64,000 nucleotides of DNA from positions 1-64,000 of the forward strand of contig JAJZCR010000011.1 in assembly GCA_021851715.1 (NCBI GenBank), in the 5' to 3' direction. The DNA comes from Planctomycetota bacterium (GTDB lineage Bacteria; Planctomycetota; Phycisphaerae; WQYP01). The translations under genes and the position numbers were made by a program. The notes below the pieces were generated by a model that searched no databases, had not been told where the DNA came from, and worked only from the letters and a program-made list of their open reading frames with translations. Position 1 is the first letter of the stretch. Each line of letters opens with the position of its first letter. Positions 2-38,142 of the stretch are shown here, piece by piece.

Positions 2-3000
2 GCGGCCCAAATCTCCATGCGGGATTTGACTGATTATCTCACTCCAATCGTCGGCCGACCACCTTTGGCCGCCGATCCCAAGGGACAAATGCACCACGCC
101 TTGTGCGATCTGTATGAAAAGCTGCGCGCCGCCATCAGCGCGTTCAATACCCCGCAGGAAGATGCGTGGAATTCCGCTCAGCAGCAACTGGCCGGCTTCC
201 AATGGCCAACCATCCGTTTTGCCCGCAACCTGTCCGACGATGACGCGGCCCGCCATTTCAAGACTAGCATCTACGACCAGGCCAAAAGACAACTCGCCGT
301 CCTGACCGAAACCCTTTTTGCCGCCCCACTGACCACCCTGCTGCAATGGAATCAGCAACTCGGCACCATCTCGCGGGCACTGTTGAAGTTTTACGCCGAT
401 GTCCATGAGCAATTTCAAGCCATGAAGGCCGCCGCCGGGCAGTTGAGCTTTGCCGATATGGAACGTTATCTTCTTGAGGCTCTCCAAATACCCGACAGTC
501 CCGTCGCCGCAGATCTTCAACGCCGCTATCGCCACGTGCTCGTCGATGAATATCAGGACATCAATCCTGTGCAGCAGGAAATTTTAACCAAAATTTGCCG
601 ACCCCGGCCGCCGGGCAGTTTTTTTCTCGTCGGCGATGCCCTGCAAAGCATCTATGGCTTTCGCGGCGGTGAGCCCAGCCTGTTTCTGGATCGTGCCAAT
701 ACCCTGCGACAGTCATCCTCTTCACCCAATCGTCTGGTCGAAATGACCGAAAACTTTCGCACGCTTCCTAATCTGCTCGATGCCATGAACATCGTCTTCC
801 AGCAACTCTTTGCCCAGCTCCCCCCCGACGCCCGCCCGGGCAATTTACCGCCCCTGCGCCATGGCCGCCCGGCCCCGGCCACCTCCGATCAGCAACTGCT
901 GACCGGCAGCCCCATCGAACTGCTGGTGGTTGTTTCCGAATCTGCTCCAACCGACACCTCAACACCTGCCGATGACGCTGATAACGCCGACGACGACGAT
1001 GCCGGCGATAACGACGCCGATACATCCATTGAAGATATGAGCAGAGCCCGGAAAGAGGCCGTGCGCCTCGTCGATCGTATTCGCCAACTCATCAGCCAAA
1101 ATAAATTATCGTCATCCGTGGATCAACAAACCCGCCCCATCACCTACAGCGATATCGCCATCTTACTCCGCAGCCCCAGGTATCAGGCGCAGGAATTTGT
1201 CCGCGTTTTTCTGGAAAACGGCATTCCCGCACAAAGCGCCATGACCAGCGGTTATTTCGCCGCGCCGGAGGTTCAGGAAATACTCGCTCTGCTGGAAGTC
1301 CTCGATAATCCATTTCAGGACATCGCCCTGGCTTCCACGCTTCTTGGACCCTTCGGCCGTTTCTCCCATGATGATCTGGCCGCTATTCGGATGCGGTTTC
1401 CACCGTCGCGTGAGTTGCCGTTCCATCAGGCCGCTTTTCGCGCGATGTATCATCCTGTTGCCGATGCAGCACGCGGGCCCGGCAATTTCGCTGATCTGCC
1501 GCAACGGCTCCAAACTTTTTTTCAAAAACTTGATCGTTGGCGTTCCGCCATACGCACCCTGGGTGTACCCGAAGGCCTGGCCCACATTTACCAGGACAGC
1601 GGCCTGCTCATCTGGTCCGCAGGCCTTCCTCATGGCCAGCAACGCGTCGCCAATCTTCAAATGCTTTACCAGCGGGCACTGGAGTTTTCCCGCTTCCAGC
1701 GACAGGGCCTGAGCCGGTTTCTTTCCTTTTTACGTGACCTGCAAGATCAGGACATAGACTTGGGCACTGCCCCCGTGGCCACCGCCGGCGATGATGCCCT
1801 TCGTATTATGTCCATCCACAAAAGCAAAGGCCTCGAATTTCCCATCGTCATCCTGGCTGGCCTTGGCACCAGATTTAATAACCGCGATACGCGGGGCGAC
1901 TGCCTGATGAACCGCCGGAACGGCATAGGCTTGCGCTACAAAGATCCGAATACCGGACAACACTGGTCATCGCCGCAATACCAGCATATACGTGCTGCCA
2001 TCAATCACCGCATGCTCGCCGAAGAAGCCCGGCTGCTCTATGTGGCCATGACCCGCGCCCGTGACAAGTTGATTCTGGTCGGATCTGTTTCCGCAAAACC
2101 CGATGCTCCATGGAAACCCTCGGCTCTTGCGCCTGCTGCGCGCTGCGCACTGGATTGGATTGCCCCCATTTTTGCCGCCAATACTGTTTGCCTGACGGAT
2201 GGCACACCGGCCCTGGTTATCGTTACTCAACCGGCTGCGGCCCGCCCCCGGTCCAACGCCTTCACCCCGGCCCCAGCGGCCCCCGACCAAACCACTGTTG
2301 CCACCCTTATCCAAATGCTCTCTGACAGCCGGTTTGAACAGGCCCGTGCCACTCCAGCCTTAGGTGTGCTGCAACCGGCGGATCCCGAGGTGCAAGCGCT
2401 TATCACCAGGCTTACCCGCACCTATCCCTGGCAGCCGCTGACCATGCTGCCCGCGGTAACCAAGGTGACAGAGTTAAAATCTCACACTCATCCCGACTGG
2501 GAAGAATCTCCGGCCGCGGAACTCATCACTGCGGATCATCCTCCAGGCATCCCACTGCCCGAAACAACCGAAAGCCCCGCCATCCAACGTGGCATAGCAA
2601 CCCACCGCCTCCTGCAATTGCTGGATTTCACCCAGCCCCTGGATGCCGCCGGAATCGGCCGGCAACTGCGAACCTTCGTCGACCGCCATCTTTTCCGGGA
2701 GGACGACGCCGCCCTGATAGATTCCGCCGCAGTGGCTTGGATATTTCAAACACCCATCGGCCAACAGATTCTCTCGATTGCCGCTACCCAGGGCCTTGCC
2801 GACGGCATTGGCGCAAAGGGCATCTATCGCGAACTTCAATTCCTGTGGTCCATGGAACCCCATCTGCTCGCCACCGCCACCGAGAACTGTGCCGCAATCA
2901 GCTCGACTCCCGCCGATCGCGTGCTGGTCCGCGGCGTTATTGATCTATTGATGGCAACGCCGTCAACATTGCACATCGTCGATTATAAAACCGATACTCC

Positions 3001-3151
3001 CTCTCAAATACAAGCCCGCATACCGATGTATACCCGCCAACTGCGTTACTACGCGCAGGCCGTCTCGACCATTCTTCGCCGCCGCGTCACCCATGCAACA
3101 CTGGTATTTATCTTGGCCCAAACCGTCACCCCCGTCACCCTGCCGTCATAA
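2..3151 (+). CDS. addA: ATP-dependent helicase/nuclease AddA (RecB-like), 5' truncated
   Basis: The reading frame is open to the window edge, and helicase motif I (Walker A) is absent, so the N-terminus lies outside. Counting from the first visible ATG at 17, the UvrD/Rep-type motifs are VDEYQD at residues 177-182 (motif II), GDALQSIYGFRGG (III), HKSKGLEFP near 601 (V) and LYVAMTRARD near 674 (VI). A C-terminal PD-(D/E)XK nuclease core follows, with GVIDLL and then VDYKTD at 988-993. This order is that of AddA/RecB proteins, which process double-strand breaks for RecA loading; addB would be expected upstream. An acidic low-complexity stretch at about 318-343, rich in Asp, sits between helicase domains and is probably a lineage-specific linker. 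AddA is preferred over RecB because no RecC or RecD is visible, but the partner genes are outside the window. Confidence 0.9.
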   Translation, partial: AAQISMRDLTDYLTPIVGRPPLAADPKGQMHHALCDLYEKLRAAISAFNTPQEDAWNSAQQQLAGFQWPTIRFARNLSDDDAARHFKTSIYDQAKRQLAVLTETLFAAPLTTLLQWNQQLGTISRALLKFYADVHEQFQAMKAAAGQLSFADMERYLLEALQIPDSPVAADLQRRYRHVLVDEYQDINPVQQEILTKICRPRPPGSFFLVGDALQSIYGFRGGEPSLFLDRANTLRQSSSSPNRLVEMTENFRTLPNLLDAMNIVFQQLFAQLPPDARPGNLPPLRHGRPAPATSDQQLLTGSPIELLVVVSESAPTDTSTPADDADNADDDDAGDNDADTSIEDMSRARKEAVRLVDRIRQLISQNKLSSSVDQQTRPITYSDIAILLRSPRYQAQEFVRVFLENGIPAQSAMTSGYFAAPEVQEILALLEVLDNPFQDIALASTLLGPFGRFSHDDLAAIRMRFPPSRELPFHQAAFRAMYHPVADAARGPGNFADLPQRLQTFFQKLDRWRSAIRTLGVPEGLAHIYQDSGLLIWSAGLPHGQQRVANLQMLYQRALEFSRFQRQGLSRFLSFLRDLQDQDIDLGTAPVATAGDDALRIMSIHKSKGLEFPIVILAGLGTRFNNRDTRGDCLMNRRNGIGLRYKDPNTGQHWSSPQYQHIRAAINHRMLAEEARLLYVAMTRARDKLILVGSVSAKPDAPWKPSALAPAARCALDWIAPIFAANTVCLTDGTPALVIVTQPAAARPRSNAFTPAPAAPDQTTVATLIQMLSDSRFEQARATPALGVLQPADPEVQALITRLTRTYPWQPLTMLPAVTKVTELKSHTHPDWEESPAAELITADHPPGIPLPETTESPAIQRGIATHRLLQLLDFTQPLDAAGIGRQLRTFVDRHLFREDDAALIDSAAVAWIFQTPIGQQILSIAATQGLADGIGAKGIYRELQFLWSMEPHLLATATENCAAISSTPADRVLVRGVIDLLMATPSTLHIVDYKTDTPSQIQARIPMYTRQLRYYAQAVSTILRRRVTHATLVFILAQTVTPVTLPS

Positions 3152-3228
3152 CCTGATGGCCGCCACCAGCACGCACCGGTCATTGCTTCACGGCGTAGCC
3201 TTGTTTACCTTTTTAACCGTTTGTCTGC

Positions 3229-6491: not shown

Positions 6492-6587
6492 ATGTTTTGG
6501 ATTTATATATTTGTGACTGCGGCTTTCTTTTTGAGTTGTTGGGGTCTGTTGGCCCTTTGCAGCTATTTAATGGAGGCCCGTAAATGA
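6492..6587 (+). CDS. 31-aa membrane protein at the head of the kdp operon
   Basis: This short frame encodes a single hydrophobic helix followed by a polar tail (MFWIYIFVTAAFFLSCWG, ending YLMEARK). AGGAG at 6481-6485 sits 6 nt before its ATG, and its TGA overlaps the kdpF ATG as ATGA, so the two are translationally coupled. From memory, small proteins with a comparable FF-x-L-x-W-x-L pattern and a Cys before the end often precede kdpF in other bacteria. A role in Kdp complex assembly or stability is possible but unproven. The ribosome binding site and the overlap are the main support. Confidence 0.75.
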   Translation: MFWIYIFVTAAFFLSCWGLLALCSYLMEARK

Positions 6588-6676
6588 GCGTGCTTTATTG
6601 GATTGGCGGCATCATTTCCTTACTGCTTTTGATTTATCTGCTGGTGGCACTGCTTTTCCCGGAGAAATTTTCATGA
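6584..6676 (+). CDS. kdpF: K+-transporting ATPase small subunit KdpF
   Basis: A 30-residue single-helix protein (MSVLYWIGGIISLLLLIYLL, ending FPEKFS) with the length and the LLFPE-x-F ending typical of KdpF. In E. coli the peptide packs against KdpA and stabilises the KdpFABC complex. It overlaps the preceding small ORF by 4 nt and the kdpA start by 4 nt (ATGA both times), so all three are coupled. Confidence 0.93.
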   Translation: MSVLYWIGGIISLLLLIYLLVALLFPEKFS

Positions 6677-8445
6677 CCCCCAACGCCTGGCTGCAAATTA
6701 CCCTGCTCATGGGCACCGTGCTGCTGCTGGTAAGACCGGTCGGTGCATATATGGTCCACGTATATGAAAACCAGCCGGTACCCAGATTGGGTAAAATTCT
6801 GGGTCCGGTGGAGCGCGGTATCTACCGCGTGTGCGGCATATCCGCCCACCATCAACAGAATTGGAAACGCTACACCCTGGCCCTGCTGCTGTTTAACCTG
6901 CTGGGATTTATGGCGGTGTATCTCATTCAGCGGTGGCAGGGGTGGTTGCCACTGAACCCGGCCGAAATGCCCGCGGTAGCCCCCAGTTCTCTGGCCTTTA
7001 ACACCGCGGCCAGTTTTGTCACCAATACCAACTGGCAGAACTATGCCGGTGAATCCACCATGAGCTACTTCACACAAATGGCGGCGTTGACGGTGCAGAA
7101 TTTTCTTTCCGCGGCCACCGGCCTGACGGTGCTGGTGGCGCTGGTGCGCGGGCTGGCCCGCAAAACCACCACTGAACTGGGCAGTTTCTGGGTGGATTTA
7201 ACACGCAGCATGTTATACATCCTGTTGCCGCTTTCGCTGGTGCTGGCCGTGGTTTTAGTCTCTCAGGGCGTACCGCAGACCCTGGATAAATATATCACTG
7301 TGCATCTGGTGCAACCGTTTCATCAGGCCAACTCCACCACCACAGCCCCGTCCGCAGCCATCACCACCCAAACTATTGCCGTCGGTCCGGTAGCTTCACA
7401 GGAAGCTATTAAAGAACTGGGAACCAATGGCGGAGGTTTTTTTAACGCCAACTCCGCTCATCCCTTTGAAAATCCCACGGGATTGACCAATTTCCTGGAA
7501 GAGGTGGCTATCCTGTTGTTGCCGCTGGCATTTTGCTACACCTTCGGCCGCATGGTGGGAGACACCCGGCAAGGCTGGGCCGTGCTGACCGCCATGCTGG
7601 TGCTGCTGCTGGCCCTGATGATACCGTGCGTGATGGCCGAGCAGGCCGGCAATCCGCTGCTGGCCGGATATTGCAACCAGCGGCCAACGCAACTGCAAAC
7701 GGGTGGCAATATGGTGGGCAAGGAAGCGCGTTTCGGACCGGTCAACAGCGCCATTTTTGCCGGCGTGGCCACCGGCACTTCCACCGGCGCGGTAAATTCC
7801 ATGCTGGATTCGTTTACCCCACTGGGGGGCCTGTGCCCACTGTGGCTGATACAGCTTTCCGAAGTGGCTCCCGGCGGTGTTGGTTCGGGCTTGTACGGCA
7901 TGTTGATGTTTGTCCTGATTACGGTGTTCATCGCGGGCCTCATGATTGGTCGAACGCCGGAATATCTGGGCAAAAAAATAGAAGCATTTGAAATGAAAAT
8001 GGCGTCCATCGCCATTCTGGTGCCACCGTCGCTGGTGCTGGTGGGCACCGCCATTGCCTGCGTAACCGCGGCCGGCCTTGCCGGTATAGCCAATCCCGGG
8101 GCCCACGGCTTTTCCGAAATGCTCTACGCCATGACCTCCCAGGGGAACAACAACGGCTCCGCTTTTGCCGGGCTTAATGGCAATACCACGTTTTACAACG
8201 TGCTGGGAGCCTTGCTGATGCTCGCGGCGCGGTTCTGGACGATTATTCCGACCATGGCCATCGCGGGTTCTCTGGCCCGCAAGAAGATTATTCCGGCCGG
8301 ATCGGGCACCCTTGCCACGAATTCACCACTGTTTGTGTTCATTTTGATCGCCATCATTGTGATTGTAATCGCCCTGACTTTTTTCCCGGCCCTGACCCTT
8401 GGGCCTATTGTGGAACAGCTACAGATGATGGCGGGCCATCGGTAA
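6673..8445 (+). CDS. kdpA: K+-transporting ATPase subunit KdpA
   Basis: This is the potassium-channel-like translocation subunit of KdpFABC, 590 residues with about ten transmembrane helices. Typical segments are [16 protein letters not shown] (first selectivity loop), [22 protein letters not shown], a loop containing [10 protein letters not shown], and [13 protein letters not shown] in the fourth pore loop. The frame extends upstream to 6598, but the ATG at 6673, which starts MTPNAWLQ and overlaps the kdpF stop, gives the normal N-terminus. Length and motifs are complete, so the pump should be functional. Confidence 0.97.
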
Positions 8446-33354: not shown

Positions 33355-34332
33355 TCAGGGACGGGGGTGGTGCTTTAAGTGCACGGCCTTTAGCCGATCC
33401 GCATCCACATGGGTGTACAATTGCGTGGTGCCCACATTGGAATGGCCCAGCAATTCCTGCACTACCCGCAGATCCGCCCCACCGGAGAGCAGATGCGTGG
33501 CAAAGGTATGACGCAGCGTATGCGGATGGATATGCCGCAAGCCACCGGCCTGCGATATTTGCGCTATGCGCTGCCACAAAACGATCCGGTTGATCGGCCG
33601 GCCTGACCGCGATAAAAATACCCGCTCCGTCCGATACCCTTTCACGGCCAAAAGCCGCGGACGCAGATCCTGCACATATTTTTCCAGAGCCTGCAGCGCT
33701 GGAACGCCCGCAGGAATAATACGCTCTTTGCGTCCCTTGCCGATCACCCGGATTACACCGAGATCCCAATGCACATCGCCCAGTTCCAGGTCCGCCAATT
33801 CCGAAGCCCGTAATCCGCAGGCATAAAACAACTCCACAATAGCCTGATCGCGTAGATACAGCGGATGGCCTGGCTGGACGGCTTGGAGCAACTTCTCCAT
33901 TTGTCCCCGGGCCAGCACGTCAGGCAGTTTACGCCATACATGGGCGGTTTCCAGTAGTTCCGTCGGGTTGATGGTGCAAAGGCCGCGGGAGATCGCAAAG
34001 CGATAAAACATTTTCATGGACGCAACATGCCGCAGCACGCTGGAGGATTGCATTTGACGATCTTCCCCCAGGTGGCGCAGATAAGCTGATACCATGCGAT
34101 CATCCGCCTCAATCATGCGTTTGCGGCCATGGCCCGCAGAGAATAATGCCCAATCGGTCAGGTCGGTGCGATAGGCTGAAAGGGTGTTGGCGGCCAATCC
34201 CAGTTCCGTATCCACGTATAAACAAAATTGCTGGATGGCGGCAATATCTTCGGGCACAAGACCGCTGATCGTATCGCCTGCCGCCGCTGGAACAGCGGAA
34301 TTGACCGGGTTAGCGCTACCGCTTTTCACCAT
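33355..34332 (-). CDS. xerD: Site-specific tyrosine recombinase XerD/XerC
   Basis: A 325-residue recombinase that resolves chromosome dimers at dif. The catalytic set is complete: Arg in ACGLRASEL, Lys in GKGRKERIIP, HTLRH in IHPHTLRHTFATHLLSGGAD, His in LLGHSNVGTTQ and the Tyr nucleophile in LYTHV. The N-terminal SAM-like domain has TLSAYRTDL and the RFAISRG/NPTE linker typical of XerD. A 25-residue extension precedes that domain. A housekeeping recombinase rather than a phage integrase, since there is no phage gene near. Confidence 0.93.
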   Translation of the reverse strand: MVKSGSANPVNSAVPAAAGDTISGLVPEDIAAIQQFCLYVDTELGLAANTLSAYRTDLTDWALFSAGHGRKRMIEADDRMVSAYLRHLGEDRQMQSSSVLRHVASMKMFYRFAISRGLCTINPTELLETAHVWRKLPDVLARGQMEKLLQAVQPGHPLYLRDQAIVELFYACGLRASELADLELGDVHWDLGVIRVIGKGRKERIIPAGVPALQALEKYVQDLRPRLLAVKGYRTERVFLSRSGRPINRIVLWQRIAQISQAGGLRHIHPHTLRHTFATHLLSGGADLRVVQELLGHSNVGTTQLYTHVDADRLKAVHLKHHPRP

Positions 34333-34358: not shown

Positions 34359-35657
34359 TCAGCCGTCCTGCTCCATCGGCAAGCGTGGCCCGCCCGCTGT
34401 CGGACCGGAATCCAGAGCCACGGCCGAATCCGAGGATTGTTCCATATTATCCGAAGAACGCTGCTTTTGCGCCCACCAGGCGCTTAACCGATCCGCCAGC
34501 GCCTGAACCTGCAAAGGCTCATCGGCGGCAATGTACAATCCGGCATCGCGCGAGCGGAATAGGTGATAGCACAGCAGGCTTACCATGTCGGCCGGATCAT
34601 CATTCAAGCCGTCTCCGGACGGCAGCGGCGTGTTGATATGGTTACACCACTGGGCAAGCACGTCGTTAACCCGTTTTTTCGGCACCGGCTCGCCGGCAAC
34701 AATTCTCCTGTCCTGAAAAAAGAAAGGTTCAACCCACGAGGCGGTGGCCCCGGGCTGGAGGATCAGAAATTTGAGACTCGGTAATCGGTGAACGTATGTA
34801 AATCTTTCGCCGGAAAGTCGAGCCGCTGAGTTGATCCGGGATTTGATGCGTGCGGCAGAGAGAAAATCCAGCTTGGCCGCGGCACTGCGCATCTGCAGTT
34901 GCTGTTCTTGCTGCCAGGCCTGGCGAATGGCCGCAGCCACCTCGCCCGGCGCTGCTCCACCTCCGACCAGAAATTCCGCCGCCCTGCGCACGCTCTGGCG
35001 ATACTCCGCCATAGTGGTACTGCCATCGCAGGGGGCCGGACATTTACCCATTTGCTTGTAGGCGCATGGTTTGCCGTGCGGTGCCTCCCGGAGTACATCA
35101 TAATACCGACACAAGTCGAAGGTGTCTTCCAATACGTGTATGGCCTGGCGGGCACTCACGGCATCCGGAAACGGCCCCAGCCATTGGCCGGTCGACTCAC
35201 GGGCGGCGGAAATGGCCAGCAACTGGGGAAACTCGGCTTCCAAGTCTACCATAACCCCCCACGCCATTTTCCACGCCAGCATTTTGCGGTACCGGTCCGG
35301 ATATAGCAGCCGCGCCGCGCGCAGATACCATAAATTGGCCGCAAAGGTGCTGCCGACCCGGCGATAATCGACCCAACGACTGAACTGGCGATAATTGACG
35401 CGGCGCAAATGAGAATCTGCGGCGGGTGGCAAGGCACAGCGATGCAGCAACCCCAGTCGCAGATTGGCGGTACTGGAAAGTAAAATGGACTCTCGGGCGT
35501 GGTCCAACAGCGCATAAACAGCGGGCTTGGCCGGCACGGTGGCCAAAGCAATATCCAAATTTCGACCGTCGGCCGCCGGGTCGAGCAGATCCGTGGGGAT
35601 TTCCGGCAATTCCACACGCTGCGGCAGCAGATCCGACAAGGTGGTTGGCGTATCCAC
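34359..35657 (-). CDS. UvrC-like protein with degenerate GIY-YIG domain and no RNase H half
   Basis: The 432-residue product aligns with the N-terminal half of UvrC. In UvrC the GIY-YIG domain reads PGVY then YVGKA-x-NLR; here it is KPAVYALL then ILLSSTANLR, so the second half of the motif is lost. Downstream features are kept: LGPFPDAVSARQAI, FDLCRYYDV, PCAYKQMGKCPAPC (Cys-x7-Cys-x3-Cys as in the UvrC Fe-S site) and a UVR-like stretch AAAKLDFLSAARIKSRI. The C-terminal RNase H-like nuclease and HhH domains of UvrC are absent. Start is GTG without a clear ribosome site. Probably non-nucleolytic or with altered activity. Confidence 0.82.
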   Translation of the reverse strand: MDTPTTLSDLLPQRVELPEIPTDLLDPAADGRNLDIALATVPAKPAVYALLDHARESILLSSTANLRLGLLHRCALPPAADSHLRRVNYRQFSRWVDYRRVGSTFAANLWYLRAARLLYPDRYRKMLAWKMAWGVMVDLEAEFPQLLAISAARESTGQWLGPFPDAVSARQAIHVLEDTFDLCRYYDVLREAPHGKPCAYKQMGKCPAPCDGSTTMAEYRQSVRRAAEFLVGGGAAPGEVAAAIRQAWQQEQQLQMRSAAAKLDFLSAARIKSRINSAARLSGERFTYVHRLPSLKFLILQPGATASWVEPFFFQDRRIVAGEPVPKKRVNDVLAQWCNHINTPLPSGDGLNDDPADMVSLLCYHLFRSRDAGLYIAADEPLQVQALADRLSAWWAQKQRSSDNMEQSSDSAVALDSGPTAGGPRLPMEQDG

Positions 35658-35709: not shown

Positions 35710-36183
35710 CTACACTGGCATTCCCGTAATTTTACATTCAAATACCAGAGTACCGTTGCAAACACCCTGGCAATCCGCCACAATGCGCCGCCGACTCACA
35801 TCCACCATTTTGGCAATCACGTACAAGGTGCTGGGCGGAATCACAGCACCGCGGAATTTACCATGCTCACACCGGGCAAACCCGATAAAGCCCATCTCCG
35901 GTATCAACACTCGGCCGGCATAAGAGCAGAGTTGCGCGGCCGACTCAATCATCAGAACCCCCGGCAGCAGCGGCCGGCCTGGAATATGGCCGCGGACCCA
36001 GAATTCATCCATCCGCACCTCGCGCACGCCCACAATGGTAATATTTTCCCGGTCTATATGGATAATTCCGGAAAGCTGTTCCATTTCAAAGCGATGCGGG
36101 TTGACCTTGCGAATTTCCTCCAGTGGTACCTCAATGTTGGATAAATCCAAGCGGCTTAAATCGTATAGAAGTGGTGGTGCCAC
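35710..36183 (-). CDS. FabZ-like hot-dog dehydratase
   Basis: A 157-residue single hot-dog domain. DEFWVRGHIPGRPLLPGVLMIESAAQL matches the FabZ active-site helix, here described over positions 67-93, with the catalytic His in GHIPG and Glu in MIESAAQ. It therefore probably dehydrates 3-hydroxyacyl-ACP, or is one of the FabZ paralogues used for unusual lipids in Planctomycetes (which often begin MAPPLLFD as here, VAPPLLYDL). Two GTG codons are candidates: 36189 (GGAG 4 nt upstream) and 36183 (10 nt); the latter matches paralogues. Confidence 0.85.
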   Translation of the reverse strand: MAPPLLYDLSRLDLSNIEVPLEEIRKVNPHRFEMEQLSGIIHIDRENITIVGVREVRMDEFWVRGHIPGRPLLPGVLMIESAAQLCSYAGRVLIPEMGFIGFARCEHGKFRGAVIPPSTLYVIAKMVDVSRRRIVADCQGVCNGTLVFECKITGMPV

Positions 36184-36328
36184 GAACACAATACTCCAGT
36201 TGAACACTCAAAATCACAGGTAACATACGCCAATGCAGCGGTGTTTACAACCGAAGTACCCGGCAGCCGTCCGTACTGTTTCAGCAGTTGATTGGTTGGA
36301 GTTGCAGCGGCATATCAAGCCCGGCGCT

Positions 36329-36505
36329 TCATGGCGCCTGCGTGCGCATTTCCAGTATTTTCTTGCGGATAATTTGGGCCGTGGCTCGAACATCCTGCAT
36401 GGCCTTGCGCACACGAGTGCCGGCCATTTTATTGCCGCCCTGGGCCTTGGCAATATCTTCCGCACAGGCTTCCAGAATTTTTTTTAGATTTTCGTATTCT
36501 TCCAT
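36329..36505 (-). CDS. Small histone H1-like (Hc1-type) protein
   Basis: A 58-residue frame, preceded by TAAGGAG with an ideal 8-nt gap. The sequence MEEYENLKKILEACAED, then KAQGGNKMAGTRVRKAM and IIRKKILEMR, is a charged two-helix hairpin matching the conserved N-terminal domain of chlamydial and planctomycete Hc1 proteins (KAE-x-GNK-x-A-x-x-RVR pattern, from memory). The Lys/Ala-rich DNA-binding tail of chlamydial Hc1 is missing, as in other small planctomycete versions. It may modulate DNA or RNA binding or chromosome compaction. Confidence 0.85.
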   Translation of the reverse strand: MEEYENLKKILEACAEDIAKAQGGNKMAGTRVRKAMQDVRATAQIIRKKILEMRTQAP

Positions 36506-36633: not shown

Positions 36634-38142
36634 TCAGTGCGTCAAGCCATACACCAGAATATTGGTTCCCAGCTTCAAGGCGTCCGTTGTGGCGTAAGCC
36701 TTCGCGTAGGGGTTGGGCAGGTCTTCCCAGCCGTTGGAAAGCGAGATTCGGCTGTACACCACGGCCGGCGCACCATCGATGGTGATGCCTTCGAGCACCG
36801 GTGCGTGCAAGCCAGGATCTGCGGACGCCACCACTGGTGAATAGTTCACCTGGCGGATTTGGAATACATCGTTATAAACCGGCGACTTCATGGACAATAT
36901 TTTAAGCTTATGGTGCGGCAGCACCTTTTTAATTTCCGCACGGAACGCTTCATCAAACGCATCCGACCCCATCGCACAATCCACAAATAGCATGCCTCCG
37001 GCATGAAGGTACGCATGCAGGTTTTGCACCTCTTTGGGTGTCCAGGCAAAGTTCCGCAAACCCGTCATGTACAAAATGGGATACTGGCCCACGCTCAGCG
37101 AATCCAGCGAAACCCTGGCTCTCTTGAATTGCACGCTCAGGGTTGTTTTCTGATCGATGAACTTGAGCAGATTCGGCAGACCATGCGGCGTGGGATTCCA
37201 ATCGCCGTTGTTCATCACTTGCGCAATCACCAATTGGTCGCGGGTGGCGATTTTGGACTGCTGATAAATTTTTTGAATTTCAAACGCCCGGCCGTACTGA
37301 TAATTGGCCAGTACGTATGTCAAAATATTGGCTCCCAGCCGCAGGGCATCGCCTTGCGCATAGAGCACTCCGCCCTTGATGGGCCGGGCGGCCGCGTTCC
37401 AGCCCCAGCTCATGTCCACCGGCGAAAAAATGATTCCCGCCCGGCAGCCCATGTACATCACATCCAGGTACGGCGGAATTTCTTTCCATGGACCGGTGCC
37501 CTTGCGCACGGCCATTTGCGAAATGTGATTGAGGCAATGATACATCGGATCATCCAACGGCAGCGGGCCAAAGGGGCGATTCGGAAACAATTGATGTTCC
37601 AGGCGAATCACGCTTTTATTAAATTCCGGCCGGCCGCAACTGGCATTGATTAAAAGGGTACCGCCCGCGGTAATGAAACCTCGCATTTTCGCCAGAATCA
37701 CCGGGCTGAATTTCGGCAGCGGTGTCCATCCCGTCAGATAAAGCACCGGCAATTGCGTCGGACTCCAGCTGAACCGGGATAAATCCACCTGTACGTATCG
37801 ATAGTGCAGGCCCAGTTGCGAGTTGGTCCAGTTCATCAGGGTTTCAATATCGATGGTTTCCGTGGGGTAATTCTCCACACGGTGGCCCACTATCTGATTC
37901 AGATCAATCATGCCGATCAGGGCCGGGGGAGCGGGTTTTCGCTTATGTTCGGAGCGGCGCTGGGGCGTGGCCGGCAAAGGCAGCGGCGCAGTGGCCTCGC
38001 CTCCAGCCATACGTACGTGGTGCGCCCGCGGCGGAACCCAAGCTTTGGGATTGACAAAAGCCGTGGCGGGCAGCGCCAGCGATAACCCAGCCAAACACGC
38101 TGCCGCAGTTACTCCAATATGCTTGCACCATGAACTTCGCAT
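36634..38142 (-). CDS. Exported protein with two tandem DUF4159 domains
   Basis: A 502-residue protein with a signal peptide (AAACLAGLSLALPATAF) and two copies of the same domain. The first (about 100-295) and second (about 315-502) each contain the series RY-x-QVDLSRF / QFKRARVSL, PVLYLTG / PILYMTG, the GG-T/M-L-hydrophobic strand (GGTLLINASCG / GGMLFVDCAMG), DPMYH / SPVYN, and a closing DALRLGANILTYVL / DALKLGTNILVYGL. DUF4159 proteins are frequent in Planctomycetes and often sit with MoxR/vWA operons, but none is visible here. AAGGAG sits 8 nt before the ATG. Confidence 0.9.
   Translation of the reverse strand: MRSSWCKHIGVTAAACLAGLSLALPATAFVNPKAWVPPRAHHVRMAGGEATAPLPLPATPQRRSEHKRKPAPPALIGMIDLNQIVGHRVENYPTETIDIETLMNWTNSQLGLHYRYVQVDLSRFSWSPTQLPVLYLTGWTPLPKFSPVILAKMRGFITAGGTLLINASCGRPEFNKSVIRLEHQLFPNRPFGPLPLDDPMYHCLNHISQMAVRKGTGPWKEIPPYLDVMYMGCRAGIIFSPVDMSWGWNAAARPIKGGVLYAQGDALRLGANILTYVLANYQYGRAFEIQKIYQQSKIATRDQLVIAQVMNNGDWNPTPHGLPNLLKFIDQKTTLSVQFKRARVSLDSLSVGQYPILYMTGLRNFAWTPKEVQNLHAYLHAGGMLFVDCAMGSDAFDEAFRAEIKKVLPHHKLKILSMKSPVYNDVFQIRQVNYSPVVASADPGLHAPVLEGITIDGAPAVVYSRISLSNGWEDLPNPYAKAYATTDALKLGTNILVYGLTH

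Follow-up and report, generated by a model that had tools for sequence, protein, structure and literature searches.

A family of UvrC-like proteins in the class Phycisphaerae has lost the GIY-YIG nuclease site and retains, under purifying selection, the cysteine cluster and a UVR-like hairpin. The member analyzed here is encoded in a window of 64,000 nucleotides (the whole stretch of DNA that was analyzed) from a Planctomycetota bacterium. In the usual description, bacterial excision repair is the work of UvrA, UvrB, and UvrC plus helpers. A catalytically dead UvrC paralog kept by selection across a class would be an unrecognized component or regulator of excision repair, and the family would be a natural case in which UvrB docking and the functions of the Cys cluster have been uncoupled from the nuclease activity of UvrC. 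The protein probably binds repair partners or DNA and does not cut. Because the docking parts of UvrC are under constraint and catalysis is lost, the simplest reading is a pseudonuclease paralog of UvrC that docks on UvrB, perhaps also on DNA, and modulates excision repair, a reading to which we give an even chance.

The window protein is a relative of the N-terminal half of UvrC, in which ~38 aa precede a GIY-YIG-fold domain that is followed by a four-Cys cluster and a UVR hairpin (Table 1). Among NCBIfam models, UvrC matched with an E value of 5.3e-18 and PRK07883, the best match, with 4.7e-21, both far under the family cut-offs; for the full-length UvrC model TIGR00194, the score was 65 bits against a cut-off of 285. 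Similarity to UvrC is recognizable across aa 39 to 285, and the likeness lies far above chance. Profile-profile comparison (hhalign) aligned the N-terminal domain with the UvrC GIY-YIG domain at a probability of 97.2 (E 3e-11). The AlphaFold2 model, built from 91 sequences, reached a mean pLDDT of 88.9 and a pTM of 0.87, and its top PDB matches in Foldseek were UvrC GIY-YIG domains (1yd6; probability 1.00, TM 0.68 by target, E 0.07), a match that is good by probability, not by E value. With the UvrC GIY-YIG domain as the best fold match, the predicted fold is UvrC-like, as an earlier sequence-only reading of this gene had supposed. The motifs from which that reading started (AVY...ILLSS, GPFP, C-x7-C-x3-C, and a UVR-like helix) were all located in the open reading frame where it had placed them, with AVY at aa 46-48, ILLSS at aa 58-62, and the helix at ~252-277. 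G161 and P162 of the GPFP block are found in 90/91 family members and in all UvrCs of the alignment.

Table 1. Features of the UvrC-like pseudonuclease gene and its surroundings, in positions of the window.
Feature	Position	Strand	Basis
UvrC-like pseudonuclease CDS	34359..35657	-	432 aa, GTG start, open frame
Degenerate GIY-YIG-fold domain, aa 39-140	35238..35543	-	hhalign, Foldseek; active-site columns lost
AVYALLDHARESILLSS, remnant of both half motifs (GIY to AVY, YIG to LLS), aa 46-62	35472..35522	-	Alignment to 19 UvrCs
GPFP block, aa 161-164	35166..35177	-	Alignment
Four-Cys cluster C183-x14-C198-x7-C206-x3-C210, candidate Fe-S site	35028..35111	-	Alignment, dN/dS
UVR-like helical hairpin, aa 240-282 (F265, A268)	34812..34940	-	Pfam UVR, PDB UvrB chains
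C-terminal alpha/beta domain, aa 285-405	34443..34805	-	AlphaFold, weak profile match
Gene for an XerC/D-type tyrosine recombinase, 26 bp downstream	33355..34332	-	Pfam Phage_integrase 1.1e-46
FabA/FabZ-like dehydratase gene, directly upstream	35710..36207	-	Pfam FabA 1.9e-17
Hc1 (histone H1-like) gene, 5′ of the FabA-like gene	36329..36505	-	Pfam Hc1 1.5e-17
DUF4159 protein gene, further upstream	36634-38142	-	Relatives close by in 9 related loci

The active site was compared in an alignment of 91 distinct family members and 19 canonical UvrCs, with the roles of GIY-YIG active-site residues taken from published work (PMC2630997). Six UvrC active-site positions (Y19, Y29, R39, Y43, E76, and N88) are complete in 19/19 canonical UvrCs; family members retain none of them (n = 38), one (n = 52), or two (n = 1), and the catalytic triad of Y29, R39, and E76 is never found together (0/91). 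At the E76 column, the family has Tyr in 73 members, Phe in 10, and other non-acidic residues in 8, and never Glu; the Y43 column is occupied by Arg or Lys in 91/91. The loss of catalytic residues that had been read from the single protein is thus borne out by its homologs in the family, none of which has an intact site, so that no sequencing error is implied. The alignment indicates that the nuclease site of the family was lost long ago, with the metal ligand, the general base, and the catalytic Arg gone, and an active 3′ endonuclease is not predicted, the catalytic residues being absent. That the protein is still a nuclease whose active site has migrated, as in R.Hpy188I, in which Lys stands for the YIG Tyr, is very improbable. 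Although GIY-YIG active sites are able to shift (PMC2630997) and the family has acquired the near-invariant residues R73 (Arg in 85/91) and Y111 (Tyr in 73/91), Hpy188I retains the metal-binding Glu, whereas the degenerate domain contains no conserved acid; a shifted site is unlikely because even the best acidic column is conserved in only 61/91 members.

Since catalytic residues and half of the length of UvrC are missing, the gene might also be taken for a decaying pseudogene or an assembly or sequencing error, a reading to which we attach almost no weight. It is ruled out by frames that are open in five congeneric genomes, by dN/dS values of 0.22 to 0.40 among these genomes, and by conservation across the class, in agreement with the earlier claim that the gene is not debris. 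By region (NG86), dN/dS is lowest in the Cys region (0.15), followed by the C-terminal domain (0.29), the dead domain (0.30), and the C-terminal tail (0.56). Thus, the gene, the dead domain included, is under purifying selection.

In total, the family was found in 92 of 158 sampled Phycisphaerae genomes, nearly all of which are at least 90% complete; 95 genomes passed with the 91-sequence profile at E 1e-30, and three (G033, G042, and G389) were dropped as matching only at the level of canonical UvrC. Orthologs are present in 4/4 other searched genomes of the genus (77 to 82% identity to the window protein) and in 23/23 other searched genomes of the taxonomic family, G018 having only a fragment. 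In a 392-genome sample of the phylum, the matches outside the class, sorted by score and frame length, were only canonical-UvrC-like, and the named genome records that carry the family are almost all Phycisphaerae or Planctomycetota. One record titled Methylococcaceae (L065) carries a member nested among Phycisphaerales and is probably a misbinned contig, that is, binning contamination. Relative to 45 other UvrC/Cho-like proteins, the family forms one clade with an SH-aLRT of 100 by a quick method; the trimming pattern left out seven class UvrCs, and a long inner branch calls for caution on the point at which the family attaches. The family is best read as old and vertically inherited within Phycisphaerae. 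It is missing from ~40% of the sampled class genomes, several of which carry a normal uvrC, so that excision repair there needs no family member.

What selection has preserved in the protein corresponds to the parts with which UvrC docks on UvrB and presumably binds DNA and a metal cluster. Of the cysteines, the sequence-only reading had correctly described C198-x7-C206-x3-C210 and had overlooked a fourth, C183; all four are present in 91/91 family members. The Cys cluster of UvrC carries a 4Fe-4S cluster, and the family may likewise bind Fe-S at this site. The UVR Phe, F265, is kept in 87/91 members and the UVR Ala, A268, in 91/91. Pfam UVR matches 39/91 members (best 1.2e-7), and the window protein alone is sub-threshold, at 11 bits against a cut-off of 21.5. 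When compared with the PDB, the family profile matched C-terminal UVR chains of UvrB (E 4e-4), and an intact UVR, LEFEKAAEIRDKI, closes the C terminus of the UvrB encoded in this genome. An element of UvrC that resembles the UvrB C terminus is needed for interaction with UvrB (PMC7835731). With the UVR motif kept, UvrB docking is the most economical guess, and the pseudonuclease is accordingly predicted from its sequence to bind UvrB; the hairpin could instead bind another UVR protein or self-associate. In the UvrB-docking reading, the GIY-YIG-fold domain would no longer cut and would be retained as a binding surface, the protein's own UVR motif would most likely attach to the UVR helices at the UvrB C terminus, and the half containing the Cys cluster and the GIY-like domain would contact DNA. 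Excision repair would then be modulated by competition with canonical UvrC, by handing over to it, or by the marking of lesions; both the DNA binding and the effect on repair are presumed, as is the part of regulator or adaptor that the sequence-only reading had suggested. Against a role in repair stand the location of the gene away from repair genes, the sub-threshold UVR score of the window protein, and the ~40% of class genomes that lack the gene.

The partners that such a protein would need are encoded in the same genome, which has uvrA (C24), uvrB (C56), and a catalytically intact canonical uvrC (C53). The co-occurrence with a full uvrC that the sequence-only reading had proposed as a check was therefore found. 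The UvrC RNase H domain was detected in 11/13 family-carrying genomes checked; in G469 and G537, rated 91-100% complete, a family member is present and the domain was not found, possibly through loss of UvrC or an assembly gap. In a more specific form of the UvrB-docking reading, the family would be a dedicated pseudonuclease subunit, a class-wide dead UvrC paralog that would bind to UvrB and either control canonical UvrC or assist it, a view that we put forward tentatively.

The claim that the RNase H half is missing stands for the catalytic domain: PF08459 is present in the genome's own UvrC and was absent from the window protein and the family members in a Pfam search. It does not stand for the remainder, as a folded 120-aa C-terminal domain follows the UVR hairpin, and the protein is thus not merely truncated past this point. 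Modeled alone, this domain has an AlphaFold pLDDT of 84.9. It is co-linear with the non-catalytic module that separates UVR from RNase H in UvrC (PF22920 by Pfam in one canonical UvrC), with a weak match (E 0.011, probability 3.9), and is possibly a relic of that RNase H-like module; an RNase H-like identity was not adopted, given the weak profile match and a PDB search in which no significant fold was found. The canonical UvrC of the class is short (L002, G000:C53, ~6553-8043), with no PF22920 module and no HhH match, and in class UvrCs, where measurable, 46-48 aa lie between UVR and RNase H, versus ~160 aa in other UvrCs. An obligate partner that gives the lost RNase H-like module to canonical UvrC in trans, as an ERCC1-like dead subunit, would account for the short spacer and for the co-linearity of the C-terminal domain with the missing module in profile alignments. 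We nevertheless consider such a partner improbable: the short UvrC also occurs where the family is absent (e.g., in G363, locus L152) and in L136, outside the class, which weakens the link, and the match between domain and module is weak and unaccompanied by a fold match.

As in UvrC, the GIY-YIG fold of the family is followed by a GP block, the four-Cys cluster, and a UVR hairpin; the family differs from UvrC by the absence of catalytic GIY-YIG residues, catalytic RNase H, and HhH and by its separate clade. ERCC1 is a catalytically dead homolog that works in excision repair. Alkyltransferase-like proteins (ATL) are also catalytically dead homologs, which feed NER and contact UvrA and UvrC (PMC7835731), and they serve as a precedent for the UvrB-docking reading. 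The folds of ERCC1 and ATL are unrelated to that of the family and the likeness is one of analogy only; a dedicated pseudonuclease subunit, if true, would be their bacterial counterpart in principle. The UvrC relatives listed by Dunin-Horkawicz and colleagues are Cho, Cho+Exo, Cho-like, and Cho-like+Exo (PMC1564403). Cho-like proteins (GIY-YIG, C4, UvrB-binding, no EndoV; Gloeobacter violaceus, PMC1564403) have the same domain layout as the family, but their known members are classed as GIY-YIG nucleases, whereas the family has lost the site. A Cho-like layout without the catalytic site makes the family a variant of the UvrC/Cho-like kind. PRK07883 (Cho-like+Exo, a DEDD exonuclease fusion of Actinobacteria, NF005906) matches aa 37-390 of the window protein, which lacks its N-terminal DEDD exonuclease domain, and a Nonomuraea homolog of this type (L144) has an intact GIY-YIG domain. 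Origin from an exo-Cho fusion within the class was considered and rejected, as 0/298 class genomes reach the PRK07883 cut-off. A search of open-license papers turned up no account of a family of UvrC pseudonucleases, which is no proof of novelty.

The gene neighborhood bears on a reading outside excision repair, in which the dead UvrC paralog would bind DNA or RNA as a structural protein, for example to organize the chromosome together with the Hc1-like histone and the XerD-type recombinase. Among the 74 loci whose upstream sequence is long enough, a FabA-like gene adjoins the family gene in 49 and Hc1 is at most 1.8 kb upstream in 43; the loci are not phylogenetically independent. Downstream, the neighbor across loci is xerD or mannose-6-phosphate isomerase, and an XerC/D-type recombinase gene is found in 20/68 testable loci. 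This conserved, operon-like order of hc1, the fabA-like gene, and the pseudonuclease gene, with xerD following in some lineages, and the absence of repair genes beside the pseudonuclease gene at the examined loci favor a structural role. However, in 18 genomes without the family gene, a FabA-like homolog is present in 18/18 and is preceded by Hc1 in 13, and in two loci (L193 and L194) mannose-6-phosphate isomerase directly follows FabA, as if the family gene had been cleanly lost. Because the hc1-fabA-like pair persists without the gene, the neighborhood is best regarded as background synteny that does not identify function, and a functional link through an operon is weakened. A structural role would also leave the kept UVR Phe unexplained, and we regard it as unlikely, though it merits consideration beside the UvrB-docking reading. 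At another locus (L001), the neighboring frames 1450-2298 and 2238-3203 encode free-standing GIY-YIG-like domains with similar N-terminal regions, of which the Pfam search reported just one.
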